Positions 10,632 through 63,966 of a DNA stretch of 64,000 nt are shown here, piece after piece. Numbering within the stretch: the stretch's first letter is position 1; each line of letters starts with the position of its first letter. The notes under the pieces were generated by a model. It saw nothing but the letters and a program-made list of their open reading frames with translations, was not told where the DNA came from and made no database searches. The position numbers and the translations under genes were made by a program. Location of the stretch: NCBI RefSeq assembly GCF_000165675.1, contig NZ_AEIZ01000026.1, forward strand, positions 62,001 to 126,000, read 5' to 3'. The DNA is from Leuconostoc fallax KCTC 3537 (GTDB lineage Bacteria > Bacillota > Bacilli > Lactobacillales > Lactobacillaceae).

Positions 10632-10793
10632 TGTTAGGCACCTCCAAATTTATTTTTTGTGAACAAGAAGAAAAGCAGGATAGAAATAATATTCCACCCT
10701 GCTTAAACACTTGTAGTACTGACGTACAACGTGTATCTGCCCAACAATAACTATCATAAGGCGAGAAGCGGGTGCTTCTACTTGTTTCAACAG
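10632..10793 (-). promoter_or_regulatory. infC operon leader RNA (L20-leader type) with internal attenuator
   Basis: About 160 nt of untranslated leader before infC. It contains a GAAGCACCCGCTTCTCGCC-like element, which resembles leaders seen before infC in Lactobacillales. It also has an internal hairpin AAGCAGG / CCTGCTT (10673-10704) followed on the minus strand by TTTTCTTCTTG, a transcription attenuator. In Bacillus, L20 binds such a leader and represses the operon; the same role is inferred here. Confidence 0.7.
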
Positions 10794-14225: not shown

Positions 14226-14475
14226 AAAAATCGCCCCTCTAGATATAAAATAAATATCTAAAGGGACGATTAACCGTGGTACCACCCAAATTTATGGACA
14301 ATGATGCATTGTCCATCCTCTACGACAGTATAACGGTGTCACCCGAAGTAGTTTTCTAATACATTACTCACCACTCACTCAAAGGTAGTCTTCATGATAC
14401 GCGTTGCTAATTCCCACCAAACATTAGCTCTCTTTGTAAACGCCATACAATGAAGTTGTCCTTATCAATGTTTAT
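14226..14475 (-). promoter_or_regulatory. T-box leader for thrS (threonine)
   Basis: About 250 nt between promoter and thrS. The T-box itself, GGGTGGTACCACGG on the minus strand (14274-14287), precedes a long terminator stem (14226-14270) ending in T. A candidate Thr specifier codon ACC (14384-14386) lies in GACTACCTTTGAG of stem I. Uncharged tRNA-Thr would bind the specifier and the T-box bulge and switch on thrS and the permease. Confidence 0.92.
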
Positions 14476-14482
14476 AGGTGCA

Positions 14483-43137: not shown

Positions 43138-44579
43138 TTACGAAGTGCTTAATTCTGTTTTTATTTTTATAGAATGCCGTGTTCCATAAAAAATATATAC
43201 AAGTACACCTATCAAAAACCAAAATCCGGCTAAAATTTTAGCATCAATGTTTAACTGAAAGAACAAAAATAATGAAGAAATTCCAGCTATGACAGGTAAT
43301 ACTGGATATAGCGGCATCTTAAATCCAGAATGATCGATATCATCACGACGCCGTAAAACTATAACCCCAAACGATATCATGGTAAAGGCAATAAGTGTTC
43401 CAGCAGAAACTAAATTAGTCAGCAAAGTTATTGGGAATATGGCACCCAAAATAATACTAATAATTGCTAATACGCTTAAAGCAATAGACGGTGTTCCTGA
43501 TTTATTAGTGCGTCCCATTGCTATTGGCAATAATCCATCTCTCCCTAAAGCATACATTAACCTCGATCCACCTAAAGATACGCCAATCAACATAGAAAAA
43601 ATACCAACAAGAGCTACAAGTGATAAAATATTAGCCACAAATAGGTGCCCCGATTGACGTAAAGCCCAAGCAGCTGGATCAGTAATATTAGTGTACTTAG
43701 TATATTTAAACATTCCAACCATAACCAATGATGCTCCAATAAAAAGCATAGTAGCTAACCCGAGAGTAGCAAAAATAGCTCTAGGTACTGTTCTTTGGGC
43801 ATTACGAGCTTCCGCCGCATTAGACGTCATCATATCAAAACCTATGTATGCAAAAAATATTTGTGAGGCACCAGCTATAATTCCAGACCAACCGAAGCGT
43901 GTACCTCCTTCATTTTCAGGAATAAAAGGATGATAATTATGGATATTTATTGCTGTTAGTCCAACTGCAATAAATAAAATAATTACTGCAATTTTACCAA
44001 CAACAAGCCAATTTTCTACTCGAGCAGTATCTCTAATACCACGCGATAACAAGAACCATACTATGAGTATGGCAATAACAGCAAATAAATCAAAAAACAT
44101 ACCTGCCTTGGGATTAAATGTGCCAGATATAGCTTTTGGTATACTAATGCCAAAAGTAGATAAAAATCCTCTAATATATGCTGACCAGGCTGAAGCTGAA
44201 TAAGCCAACGCAATTAAATATTCCGCAAGTAGTGCCCATCCTGCAACCCATCCCCAAAATTCACCGTAAATAATATTTGACCAAGTATATGCAGACCCTG
44301 CAAAAGGCAACGCCGATGAAAATTCGGCATAAGCTAATGCTGATAGTCCAGCGACAACGGCCGCTATAATAAACGAAATAGCCACAGCCGGTCCTGCATA
44401 GTTAGCAGCAACCACCCCAGGTATTATAAAAATAGCAGCTCCAACAACAGTACCTATACCTATTGCTGTTAATTCCTTAGTGCCTAAAGCATTTCCATCT
44501 AGACGTTGATCTAAGCGCGTATATTCCTTAAGCGATGCCTTTCGGCTAAATTTTCTAAAAAAGATATCTTTCCACTCAT
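43138..44579 (-). CDS. APC permease of the CAT/BcaP type (one frameshift)
   Basis: A 12-helix amino-acid permease with LGTKELTAIGIGTVVGAAIFIIPG and AYAEFSSALPFAGSAYTW, the pattern of cationic/branched-chain (YfnA, BcaP) transporters. As written, the frame opens at a TTG (44595) with an unlikely N-terminus. An ATG at 44579 in another frame starts MSGKISFF, and one extra T near 44560 joins it to RKFSRKASLKEYTR, giving 480 residues. It follows the Leu-leader-controlled PTS_EIIC_2 gene by ~56 bp without a visible terminator, so branched-chain amino-acid transport is a reasonable inference. Confidence 0.85.
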
Positions 44580-44635
44580 TACTACATATCCCCAAAACTA
44601 TTTATTAATTATTGCCAAGCTTATTTAAAGTGCTA

Positions 44636-45781
44636 TTAAATCATTTCCAAATGCAGCTGTTGCGGTTTTGCCCAACCCATTTTACGCATAATTCGATAGC
44701 CAACAAAAGATACAATCACCGGCACACCAACACCAATGCCCATATAAGCAGCAAAGGCAACTGGGTTTGAACCAGCTAATGCTAATGGTACGATAAATGA
44801 ATTAAAACCAATGCCTGCCATTGAAAAAGGTGCTGTGACATGGAAAACCATTGTCGCAATTGGTGCGGCAATTGCAGCACCAATCATTGGCGGTATGATC
44901 AAAGCTGGATTTTGTGTTAAATTAGGAAATTGAATTTTTGGTGTCACAATGCCTTGCGCAATCGTGGCACCAATTTTATTTTCTTGAAATGACATTGCAG
45001 GAAAGCCAACAAACACAGCTGTTGTCCCAATTAATATGGCACCAGCAGCTTCAGCTGAAGTGACACCGGTCGCACCAATTGCTACAGCCAACGCTGCCGC
45101 TGAGGCTGGTGTCATTGTCATTGCACCAAATGCCATCGCCACAACTGCTGTACCAACAATGGGATTTACAGCGACACTAGCAGCAATAAACTGCCCCACT
45201 GCTACCAAGAACGGTGTTGTAATCATTGCCAAGTAGTAACCTGACACAGTGCCAATAATAGTCGTCGCAGCTGGAACAATCACCATGTCCAAAGGCGTCT
45301 TACCGCTTAACCATTTACCAAATAGAACAGCAATCAATCCAGCAATCACCGCTGAAATAGGTTGCCCTGTTGTCATCACAGCTGATCCAGCAATTTGCGA
45401 ACTGGCATATCCTGTAGCCGTAATGCCTTGAACAGTTTTATCAGTAAAGAACACAGCATTAGCGCCGACAGTAGAGGCAGCCATAGCAGCAAACATGACC
45501 ATTGTATTGGTTTTCATTTGTGAAGCAATAGCAGCACCAAACGCTGCAGGTAACATGACTTTTGTAATCGCACCCATTTGTGCCATTGGTGCCCAATCAA
45601 TAAAACCAGCAATAGTCTGTAGCAACAGCCCCATACCTAATGTTACCAAAATAGCATTAGATACCGCTGCGCTGACGTTATAGATTGTCTCTTTTACAGT
45701 GCCGGCATGTCTATTCTTTTTGCCAATCATCTGTTGTACATTTTCTCTTTGTTGTGAAGCTGAATTCTGGGCCATACTCAT
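44636..45781 (-). CDS. PTS_EIIC_2-type membrane protein, copy A (Leu-attenuated)
   Basis: A 381-residue polytopic protein of the family labelled PTS EIIC (PF13303 type), with about ten hydrophobic segments. It has the blocks TTGQPISAVIAGL, SGKTPLDMVIVPA, MTPASAAALAVAIGA and VTPKIQFPNL. No EIIA, EIIB or sugar enzyme is nearby. A leader peptide ending in a run of Leu codons and a transcription attenuator precede it, which argues for a role in branched-chain amino-acid transport or homeostasis rather than sugar uptake. A close paralogue is at 62809-63966. A permease gene follows downstream. Confidence 0.85.
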   Translation of the reverse strand: MSMAQNSASQQRENVQQMIGKKNRHAGTVKETIYNVSAAVSNAILVTLGMGLLLQTIAGFIDWAPMAQMGAITKVMLPAAFGAAIASQMKTNTMVMFAAMAASTVGANAVFFTDKTVQGITATGYASSQIAGSAVMTTGQPISAVIAGLIAVLFGKWLSGKTPLDMVIVPAATTIIGTVSGYYLAMITTPFLVAVGQFIAASVAVNPIVGTAVVAMAFGAMTMTPASAAALAVAIGATGVTSAEAAGAILIGTTAVFVGFPAMSFQENKIGATIAQGIVTPKIQFPNLTQNPALIIPPMIGAAIAAPIATMVFHVTAPFSMAGIGFNSFIVPLALAGSNPVAFAAYMGIGVGVPVIVSFVGYRIMRKMGWAKPQQLHLEMI

Positions 45782-45833: not shown

Positions 45834-45951
45834 TAAAAAACGTCCCACGATTGCTCGTTAGGACGTTTGTCAATAATACATTTCCCTAACCAGCTACTAA
45901 ACTAACTTGGTGTCTAGTAGCTGGTATAACGCAAATAACAACCAACTAGAC
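45834..45951 (-). promoter_or_regulatory. Leu-responsive transcription attenuator
   Basis: Mutually exclusive pairings on the minus strand: segment 1 (45942-45951, GTCTAGTTGG) pairs with 2 (45912-45924, CCAGCTACTAGAC). Segment 2 pairs with 3 (45885-45899, TAGTAGCTGGTTAGG) over 10 bp. Segment 3 pairs through GTTAGG with CCTAAC of segment 4 (45857-45862). Segments 4 and 5 form the terminator (45839-45867, AACGTCC / GGACGTT with an inner ACGA / TCGT stem) followed by T6. Segment 1 begins one base after the leader stop codon. Stalling at the first Leu codons would leave 1:2 free to form, allowing the 3:4 antiterminator. Confidence 0.8.
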
Positions 45952-45952
45952 T

Positions 45953-46012
45953 CTAGATGAGTAAGAGGTTGAGGAGAAGTGTTTGATTCAAGCGAACATA
46001 TTGGTTTGTCAT
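45953..46012 (-). CDS. Leader peptide, Leu-rich (19 residues)
   Basis: Starts at an ATG 9 nt after AGGAG and encodes MTNQYVRLNQT then LLLNLLLI and a TAG stop. Six Leu codons (CTT CTC CTC, then CTC TTA CTC) and one Ile codon lie within the last eight codons. It stands directly before an attenuator, and is inferred to sense charged tRNA-Leu through ribosome stalling. Confidence 0.82.
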   Translation of the reverse strand: MTNQYVRLNQTLLLNLLLI

Positions 46013-46048
46013 GATTCATTTCTCCTATCTATTTTTATTATGCGTATA

Positions 46049-46077
46049 ACTATATCTTGATTATAATAAAATGTCAA
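46049..46077 (-). promoter_or_regulatory. Promoter of the Leu leader operon
   Basis: TTGACA (46072-46077), 17 bp, TATAGT (46049-46054) on the minus strand. Confidence 0.85.
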
Positions 46078-62598: not shown

Positions 62599-62667
62599 AT
62601 GTCATATTTAAACGCTAACAATTTCACAGCAATTATTGTGGTCAACATTATTGTCATTATTATTTGA
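62599..62667 (+). CDS. Leader peptide, Ile/Val-rich (22 residues)
   Basis: Starts at an ATG behind AAAGGA and encodes MSYLNANNFTA followed by IIVVNIIVIII and a TGA stop. Ten of the last eleven codons are Ile (seven, all ATT) or Val (three). Placed directly before an attenuator, it is inferred to sense charged tRNA-Ile and tRNA-Val. The layout, a run broken by one Asn codon, matches the Leu leader at 45953-46012. Confidence 0.85.
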   Translation: MSYLNANNFTAIIVVNIIVIII

Positions 62668-62671
62668 CAAA

Positions 62672-62783
62672 CAGTGGTTGATCTATTTGCTTATGCAGCC
62701 ACTCAAAAGGTAGTGGCTAGCATGTGCTGTTAATGTTTAAATGTGATTTAGACGTGCTAGTTATTAAAACTAGCGCGTTTTTA
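62672..62783 (+). promoter_or_regulatory. Ile/Val-responsive transcription attenuator
   Basis: Segment 1 (62672-62680, CAGTGGTTG) pairs with 2 (62695-62703, GCAGCCACT). Segment 2 pairs with 3 (62712-62725, AGTGGCTAGCATGT). The CTAGCATGT of 3 pairs with ACGTGCTAG of 4 (62752-62760) as antiterminator. Segments 4 and 5 form the terminator CGTGCTAGTT / AACTAGCGCG (62753-62777) with a T run. Segment 1 begins 5 nt after the leader stop, so a ribosome finishing the peptide would mask it and allow termination. Confidence 0.83.
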
Positions 62784-62808
62784 TTTCTAAAAAATATGGG
62801 AGAACAAT

Positions 62809-63966
62809 ATGAAGAATTCATACAAGAAGCACTCGGATCGTCCTGATCCCAAAGAATTACAGCCAGGTACCGGGCCGTTAACACGCCCAGAAGAAAAAAT
62901 GCGTGTTCGTGATTGGGTATATTCTGTATCTCAAGGCGTATCTAATACAATTTTAGCTGTATTGGGCATGGGCTTGCTATTAGCGATGCTTGGTGAGCAA
63001 CTCCACTGGCCTGCCTTACAAATGGCTGGTATCCAAGGCCAAAAACTTTTAGCACCTGCTTTGGGGATGGCCGTTGCCGTTATGCTTCGGACATCAACAT
63101 TAGTAACTGGTGCTAGTATGATTGCCGCCACTGTTGGTTCCAACGCCATCTATTTCACTGCTGCACCAATTTCAGGCGCAAGTACGGCCACTGGATGGGT
63201 TGCCTCTGGTAGTCATGCTTTGCCAGCAGGTTCCGCAGTTCTCACATCTGGTCAACCCATTTCAGCCGTTTTAGCTGCTGTAGTTGCTGCCGTTATTGGT
63301 AAGTGGTTAACAGGAAAAACACCCTTAGATATGGTATTGGTCCCATTGGCCTCAGCATTAGTTGGTTCCGTTGTCGGGCTTGGGTTAGCTACCGTCGTAA
63401 CACCCGCTTTAAATGCAGTGTCTAAAACATTAGCAAATACCATGCAAGTTAATCCAATTCTTGGTGCTATCATTGTATCGGTTGCTTGGTTTATTTTCTT
63501 AATGACGCCAGCCTCTTCAGCCGCCTTAGCTATTGCTGTTCAGTTAGATCCAATGAGTGCCGGTGCTGCGCTTATTGGAACAACAGTCGCCTTCGTTGCC
63601 TTCGCTGCAATGGCACCCATGCAAAATAATTTAGGTGCTAATATTGCACAAACAATCGTGACACCCAAGATTCAGTTTCCCAATTTACTTAAACGACCAA
63701 TTCTTGCTGTTGGTCCACTAGTAATTGCCGCCGTCATGTCTTGTATTGCAGTCGTCGTATTTCAATTTCAAGTACCGTATACAATCGGTGGTTTAGGTCT
63801 CAACAGTTTCATCGCGCCACTCACATTAACATCTACACCAAATAAACTACTTATTCTCATCGTATTTGGTATTGTTTTACCAGCAATACTATCATTTATT
63901 TATTATCGTTTCTTACAAACCATTGGTCAAACAAAACCCAACGACCTACACCTAGAAGAAGTTTAA
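62809..63966 (+). CDS. PTS_EIIC_2-type membrane protein, copy B (Ile/Val-attenuated)
   Basis: A 385-residue polytopic paralogue of the protein at 44636-45781, with shared blocks LTSGQPISAVLAAV, TGKTPLDMVLVPLA, MTPASSAALAIAVQ and VTPKIQFPNL. A charged cytoplasmic head of ~40 residues precedes about ten hydrophobic segments. GGGAGAACAAT precedes the ATG. The Ile/Val leader peptide and attenuator upstream suggest a branched-chain amino-acid role, in spite of the sugar-PTS family name. No PTS partner genes are in view. Any downstream operon partner lies outside the window. Confidence 0.85.
   Translation: MKNSYKKHSDRPDPKELQPGTGPLTRPEEKMRVRDWVYSVSQGVSNTILAVLGMGLLLAMLGEQLHWPALQMAGIQGQKLLAPALGMAVAVMLRTSTLVTGASMIAATVGSNAIYFTAAPISGASTATGWVASGSHALPAGSAVLTSGQPISAVLAAVVAAVIGKWLTGKTPLDMVLVPLASALVGSVVGLGLATVVTPALNAVSKTLANTMQVNPILGAIIVSVAWFIFLMTPASSAALAIAVQLDPMSAGAALIGTTVAFVAFAAMAPMQNNLGANIAQTIVTPKIQFPNLLKRPILAVGPLVIAAVMSCIAVVVFQFQVPYTIGGLGLNSFIAPLTLTSTPNKLLILIVFGIVLPAILSFIYYRFLQTIGQTKPNDLHLEEV

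Follow-up and report, generated by a model that had tools for sequence, protein, structure and literature searches.

In attenuators of the trp and leu type, the control codons overlap segment 1 of the leader RNA and a stalled ribosome masks that segment, and a leader that is left untranslated terminates. For amino-acid genes in the Lactobacillales, T-boxes are the usual device. The role of rare control codons has been discussed earlier, with leu as the paradigm (PMC1183508). The passages of PMC5794164 concerned with S. aureus ilvD describe a Leu-rich attenuator peptide and an antiterminator whose modelled partner is the poly-U tail, and those of PMC6123439 predict leader peptides rich in branched-chain amino acids in Lactococcus, Streptococcus and Listeria; these passages of the two papers make no mention of the Leuconostoc group. 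The leader of B. subtilis bmrB is ribosome-dependent, has overlapping terminator, antiterminator and anti-antiterminator structures, and acts on a transporter gene (PMC4191407).

The leader described here lies on the minus strand at 45834-46077 of the window, by which we mean the whole 64,000-nucleotide stretch of Leuconostoc fallax KCTC 3537 DNA that was analysed. The initial annotation had proposed a promoter, ribosome-binding site, 19-codon ORF, pairing segments and terminator, and all of these were found in place. Transcription would start from a promoter at 46048..46076 (-35 TTGACA at 46076-46071, a 17-nt spacer, -10 TATAGT), the position and type of which are conserved in orthologues. 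A Shine-Dalgarno sequence, AGGAG (46021..46027, with GGAG conserved in the Leuconostoc/Periweissella alignment), precedes the 19-codon leader ORF MTNQYVRLNQTLLLNLLLI (45953..46012), in which the control codons of the window copy read CTT CTC CTC AAC CTC TTA CTC. Segment 1, GTCTAGTTGGT (45941..45951), stands directly 3' of the leader stop codon; segment 2, ACCAGCTACTAGAC (45912..45925), can pair with segment 1 or 3; and segment 3, GTTTAGTAGCTGGTTAGG (45885..45902), can pair with segment 2 or, as the antiterminator, with segment 4. Segment 4 (45853..45868) is the 5' arm of the terminator, which segment 3 sequesters in the antiterminator, and segment 5 (45835..45850), assigned from folding and from 4:5 covariation, comprises the 3' arm and U-run. 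The resulting intrinsic terminator, with six U at 45840-45835, lies between the leader ORF and the first gene.

The plan of four possible pairings, 1:2, 2:3, 3:4 and 4:5 (the terminator), is supported by shuffle tests in the window and by the orthologue alignment considered below. The stretch that begins at the leader stop codon and runs through the terminator folds at -44.3 kcal/mol, versus -25.5 +/- 3.4 kcal/mol for dinucleotide shuffles (z = -5.6, 0/200), and against the same type of shuffle the complementarity of the window copy gave p = 0.003 for 3:4 and p = 0.027 for 1:2. The 3:4 helix thus provides an antiterminator that is mutually exclusive with the terminator, and in Fructobacillus it is kept by a different sequence.

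Compared with the leuL attenuators of Salmonella and E. coli, this leader shares the short ORF, the tandem rare Leu codons, the competing hairpins, the intrinsic terminator and the leucine-related targets, but it differs in that the main target is a transporter and in that the control codons precede segment 1 and one extra segment is present, an arrangement for which folding predicts the opposite behaviour when the leader is untranslated. A four-segment attenuator of the trp/leu type was rejected as a description, because the leaders compared have five segments and control codons that do not run past the start of segment 1. The likeness to S. aureus ilvD and to the predicted Gram-positive leaders, as set out in the passages of PMC5794164 and PMC6123439, consists of a branched-chain-rich leader peptide followed by a terminator, but the targets given there are biosynthetic operons. 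The nearest layout found is that of bmrB, with overlapping equivalents of 4:5, 3:4 and 2:3, although bmrB senses ribosome-targeting drugs and has its structures inside the ORF, without amino-acid control codons. No earlier description of the Leu leader was found in the literature searched; subscription journals lay outside the search, so a prior report is possible.

What we observed are the parts of the leader, their conservation, the retention of leucine through a change of codons, and the alternative pairings with some compensatory change. On these grounds the Leu leader is very probably a ribosome-mediated transcription attenuator that senses the charging of tRNA-Leu and controls the PTS_EIIC_2 gene, with a BcaP-like permease gene downstream. 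With ample Leu-tRNA, the ribosome would pass the LLLNLLLI codons, reach the stop and cover segment 1; segments 2 and 3 would then pair, leaving segment 4 free to form the 4:5 terminator and turn the operon off. When Leu-tRNA is scarce, the ribosome would stall on the Leu codons while still short of segment 1, so that 1:2 could form and release segment 3 to capture segment 4, and the operon would be transcribed in the absence of the terminator. Read-through is likewise expected of an untranslated leader, given the five segments and the position of the control codons ahead of segment 1.

The putative target, on the minus strand at 44636..45781, encodes a PTS_EIIC_2 (PF13303) membrane protein (Pfam E 6.4e-64; 216.5 bits versus a gathering cut-off of 28.9), and the starts of its relatives suggest that the true start of the gene is the ATG at 45775. 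The predicted structure is of low confidence (pLDDT 67) and resembles the PTS glucose IIC (Foldseek E 3e-5), so that the fold, itself modelled with low confidence, appears to say no more than that the protein is PTS-IIC-like. Downstream, on the same strand, lies a gene for a BcaP-like branched-chain amino-acid permease (43138..44595; NCBIfam NF053761 at E 1.2e-131, which is below the cut-off of that family, and Pfam AA_permease_2), which is probably co-transcribed with the Leu-led PTS_EIIC_2 gene. The leader combines a Shine-Dalgarno sequence and an ORF whose codons specify the amino acid to which its genes are linked, here through BcaP and elsewhere through LeuABC.

Conservation was assessed at 27 Leu loci: the window, the genome G053 and 25 orthologues that a scan across species genomes recovered in Leuconostoc, Periweissella, Convivina, Fructobacillus and two further relatives. 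A leader of the same plan precedes every close orthologue (27/27), and the conservation of Leu codons in orthologous leaders, proposed as a check on the initial annotation, held at all of these loci. The C-terminus of the leader peptide reads LLL(N/S)LL or closely resembles it (LLRNLL, LLRSLL, LLLNLQLI), and the N-terminus is variable. CTC and CTT account for 69 of the 70 Leu codons in 12 Leuconostoc leaders; in neighbouring Leuconostoc genes they make up 12.6% of Leu codons, CTC being the rarest at 3.6%. The Fructobacillus leaders use TTG and CTA instead, and TTG is the commonest Leu codon there. As the LLLxLL core is kept while its codons change, selection acts on leucine and not on the DNA.

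In the wider comparison of PTS_EIIC_2 homologue leaders that had been proposed, the device was restricted, among the genomes surveyed, to the Leuconostoc/Fructobacillus/Convivina/Periweissella group; the PF13303 homologues of other Lactobacillaceae showed no recognisable leader, and no convincing one was found before two other PF13303 clades. The leaderless clades and homologues serve as a negative control for leader conservation. The window's own genome holds four PF13303 genes. The two other PTS_EIIC_2 clades often stand directly behind a gene for a D-hydroxyacid (D-lactate-like) dehydrogenase (L001, L002, L006, L007 and others), hinting that the family moves keto or hydroxy acids or amino acids and not sugars. 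At one distant Lactobacillaceae locus (L088), an Ile/Leu-rich ORF beginning MLVIIIIGLLLDLVLIITTG and a strong terminator lie upstream of the PF13303 gene, and this ORF may be a further leader or may encode a small membrane protein.

A companion copy on the plus strand of the window has a leader ORF rich in Ile and Val, MSYLNANNFTAIIVVNIIVIII (62599..62667), an attenuator of the same five-segment plan (62668..62790; 3:4 p = 0.003) and its own PTS_EIIC_2 gene (62809..63966), with ilvE next, beyond the window end. The gene ilvE, for a branched-chain aminotransferase, follows the Ile/Val-led paralogue in 4/7 genomes, and orthologues of this copy in Leuconostoc-group genomes retain Ile/Val leaders. 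At two loci a tandem second PTS_EIIC_2 copy with its own Ile/Val leader and attenuator stands behind a Leu-led first copy (leaders at L030 4204-4264 and L033 4251-4317). The position of the BcaP-like gene after the Leu copy and of ilvE after the Ile/Val copy explains the amino acids of each leader. The claim that paralogous targets carry the same plan with different amino acids is supported by the leaders of orthologues of both copies, but the two window copies alone make a weaker case for independent sequences, an argument best carried by the Fructobacillus and leuA leaders.

A covariance model of the leader region found matches in 27/301 Lactobacillaceae genomes, belonging to 9/40 genera, counts in which opposite-strand echoes and the weakest matches, with E above about 1e-4, should be given no weight. 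In Leuconostoc, strong secondary matches lie upstream of genes of other kinds. One such leader, of the Leu type (e.g. MKSMNNNNMNINNTALLLNLLRQHLTS), precedes leuA-leuB-leuC in most Leuconostoc genomes and in both Convivina genomes examined, with an attenuator at, for instance, 3850-4030 of L144 (minus strand) and further leuA loci at L151-L168, and g39 has a leuA leader built alike that encodes a different Leu-rich peptide. Because leuABC is the expected target of leucine control, these leaders serve as a natural positive control. Some six Leuconostoc genomes have MNKTIKKMNHSLLYLLLS or a variant of it, with the same five segments, before a gene for a NicT/HoxN-type nickel transporter (L141, L142, L145, L146, L147; also L172-L180), and a Leu/Ile leader, MNKKIKKLNNILIILLLN, with an attenuator precedes a putative regulator gene at L139 and L140, followed by genes that look like sufC, sufD and sufS. 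The gene for the NicO nickel transporter appears broken in the genome from which the window comes, lying in separate pieces with in-frame stops (G000:C16:283330-284167; L193, L196, L197). A second match to the Leu-codon motif in this genome, on C29, has no fitting leader ORF and was set aside as chance.

These data bear on the possibility that the leader responds to slow translation of whatever cause, or to a stall caused by the nascent peptide or by a drug as in bmrB or erm, and not to leucine. Rare CTC codons would slow ribosomes in any stress, and the five-segment logic would also yield read-through if translation of the leader failed. Such a sensor is nevertheless improbable, as TTG in the Fructobacillus leaders is the commonest Leu codon there and the leader residue fits the gene context (BcaP, LeuABC, IlvE); peptide arrest is further opposed by the N-terminal sequence, which is usually important for arrest and is not conserved here.

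Within the Leuconostoc/Periweissella alignment, standard pairs occupy 93.8% of cells for 1:2, 90.0% for 2:3, 99.3% for 3:4 and 97.9% for 4:5, and shifting the partner by 1-3 columns lowers pairing to about 5-61%. The covariation score of terminator 4:5 exceeds all 500 shuffles. Covariation in 1:2 and 2:3 derives from few events; in L. carnosum (L020), segments 1, 2 and 3 are altered together, with 1:2 and 2:3 preserved. Pairing 3:4 is almost invariant within Leuconostoc and shows no covariation, and because it scarcely varies there the helix is unproven by covariation in that genus. In Fructobacillus, 12 pairs of 3:4 are built from different sequence, and Fructobacillus and the L1_55_11 genome keep all four pairings with a different RNA sequence. 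A further long-range helix, P0, was noticed in Leuconostoc, where the 5'UTR before the leader Shine-Dalgarno (TTGCTCAA) is complementary to the loop that joins segments 1 and 2 (TTGAGCAA; in the window, 46020-46060 and 45926-45940). In the Leuconostoc alignment 94% of P0 cells are paired, with per-sequence p mostly 0.01-0.1; P0 pairing in other genera was not significant, and the P0 regions of the window and Periweissella are apparently complementary with other letters.

The effect of ribosome position was modelled by masked folding, in which the mask on the RNA reached 13 nt from the first base of the A-site codon and the transcript was cut just before segment 5, and the energies of the two competing states were taken as additive segment energies before segment 5; values from both calculations for the Ile/Val leaders L103, L095 and L098, which were wrongly segmented, are not usable. 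When the ribosome sits on the first Leu codon, nearly all leaders form 1:2 before segment 3 exists, and the best fold before segment 5 is 1:2 plus 3:4 in 17/26; with the ribosome at the stop, 2:3 forms, followed by 4:5 once segment 5 is made. As the ribosome is walked along the leader, expected 3:4 pairs peak on the Leu (or Ile/Val) codons and in most leaders drop near the stop, most sharply in Fructobacillus and in the Ile/Val leaders L095, L103 and L033. Before segment 5, energies favour the read-through state (1:2 plus 3:4) in 23 of 26 Leu leaders and favour 2:3 in L011, L022 and L023. The window Leu copy is among the more marginal switches, its two states being nearly equal in energy (ddG -0.3 kcal/mol), and the equilibrium ribosome-walk model predicts no switch in it. 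Being near-isoenergetic, it must depend for its outcome on folding order, with 1:2 forming first, and in these models the energy balance is the weakest point for the window sequence itself.

A constitutive or protein-controlled terminator, with hairpins that tune expression and a short ORF that is incidental or sets a basal level, is favoured by two features of the window copy: its free leader folds by default to 2:3 plus 4:5, and ribosome position hardly shifts its equilibrium model. We consider this explanation slightly less probable still than a general sensor of translation, because leucine is kept at the amino-acid level despite codon change, the leuABC leaders carry the same codons, the paralogues turn to Ile/Val beside ilvE, and modelled folding changes with ribosome position in most orthologues. 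The chance that a T-box or other ligand-binding riboswitch has been mistaken for a leader-peptide attenuator is negligible, for although T-boxes are common before Lactobacillales amino-acid genes and a genuine one occurs elsewhere in the window, the conserved core here is an ORF with competing arms, no Rfam family (T-box RF00230 included) reached its gathering score in a scan of the leader region, where relaxed E-values gave unrelated weak matches, and no T-box was found upstream of 14 other homologue loci. That T-box leader (14259-14477, minus strand) and, also elsewhere in the window, an L20 ribosomal protein leader (10663-10789, minus strand) score above their Rfam thresholds.

Taken as a leucine-sensing attenuator, the Leu leader is a well-conserved variant of a known regulator type with an unusual target set. 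More tentatively, the leucine/branched-chain regulon of Leuconostoc and its relatives may be largely under five-segment attenuators of reversed logic, covering the PTS_EIIC_2 paralogues, leuABC, the nickel transporter and an Fe-S assembly operon, with the leader residue giving the substrate group of the orphan transporter. The leaders form a clear comparative case of leader-peptide attenuation in the Lactobacillales, and their five-segment layout predicts that the operon is on, not off, when leader translation is abolished. The shift from rare CTC in Leuconostoc to common TTG in Fructobacillus bears on the need for rare codons in attenuators. The orphan PF13303 family, named after the sugar PTS and found near genes for BcaP, IlvE and D-hydroxyacid dehydrogenase, gains a testable link to leucine and to isoleucine/valine.
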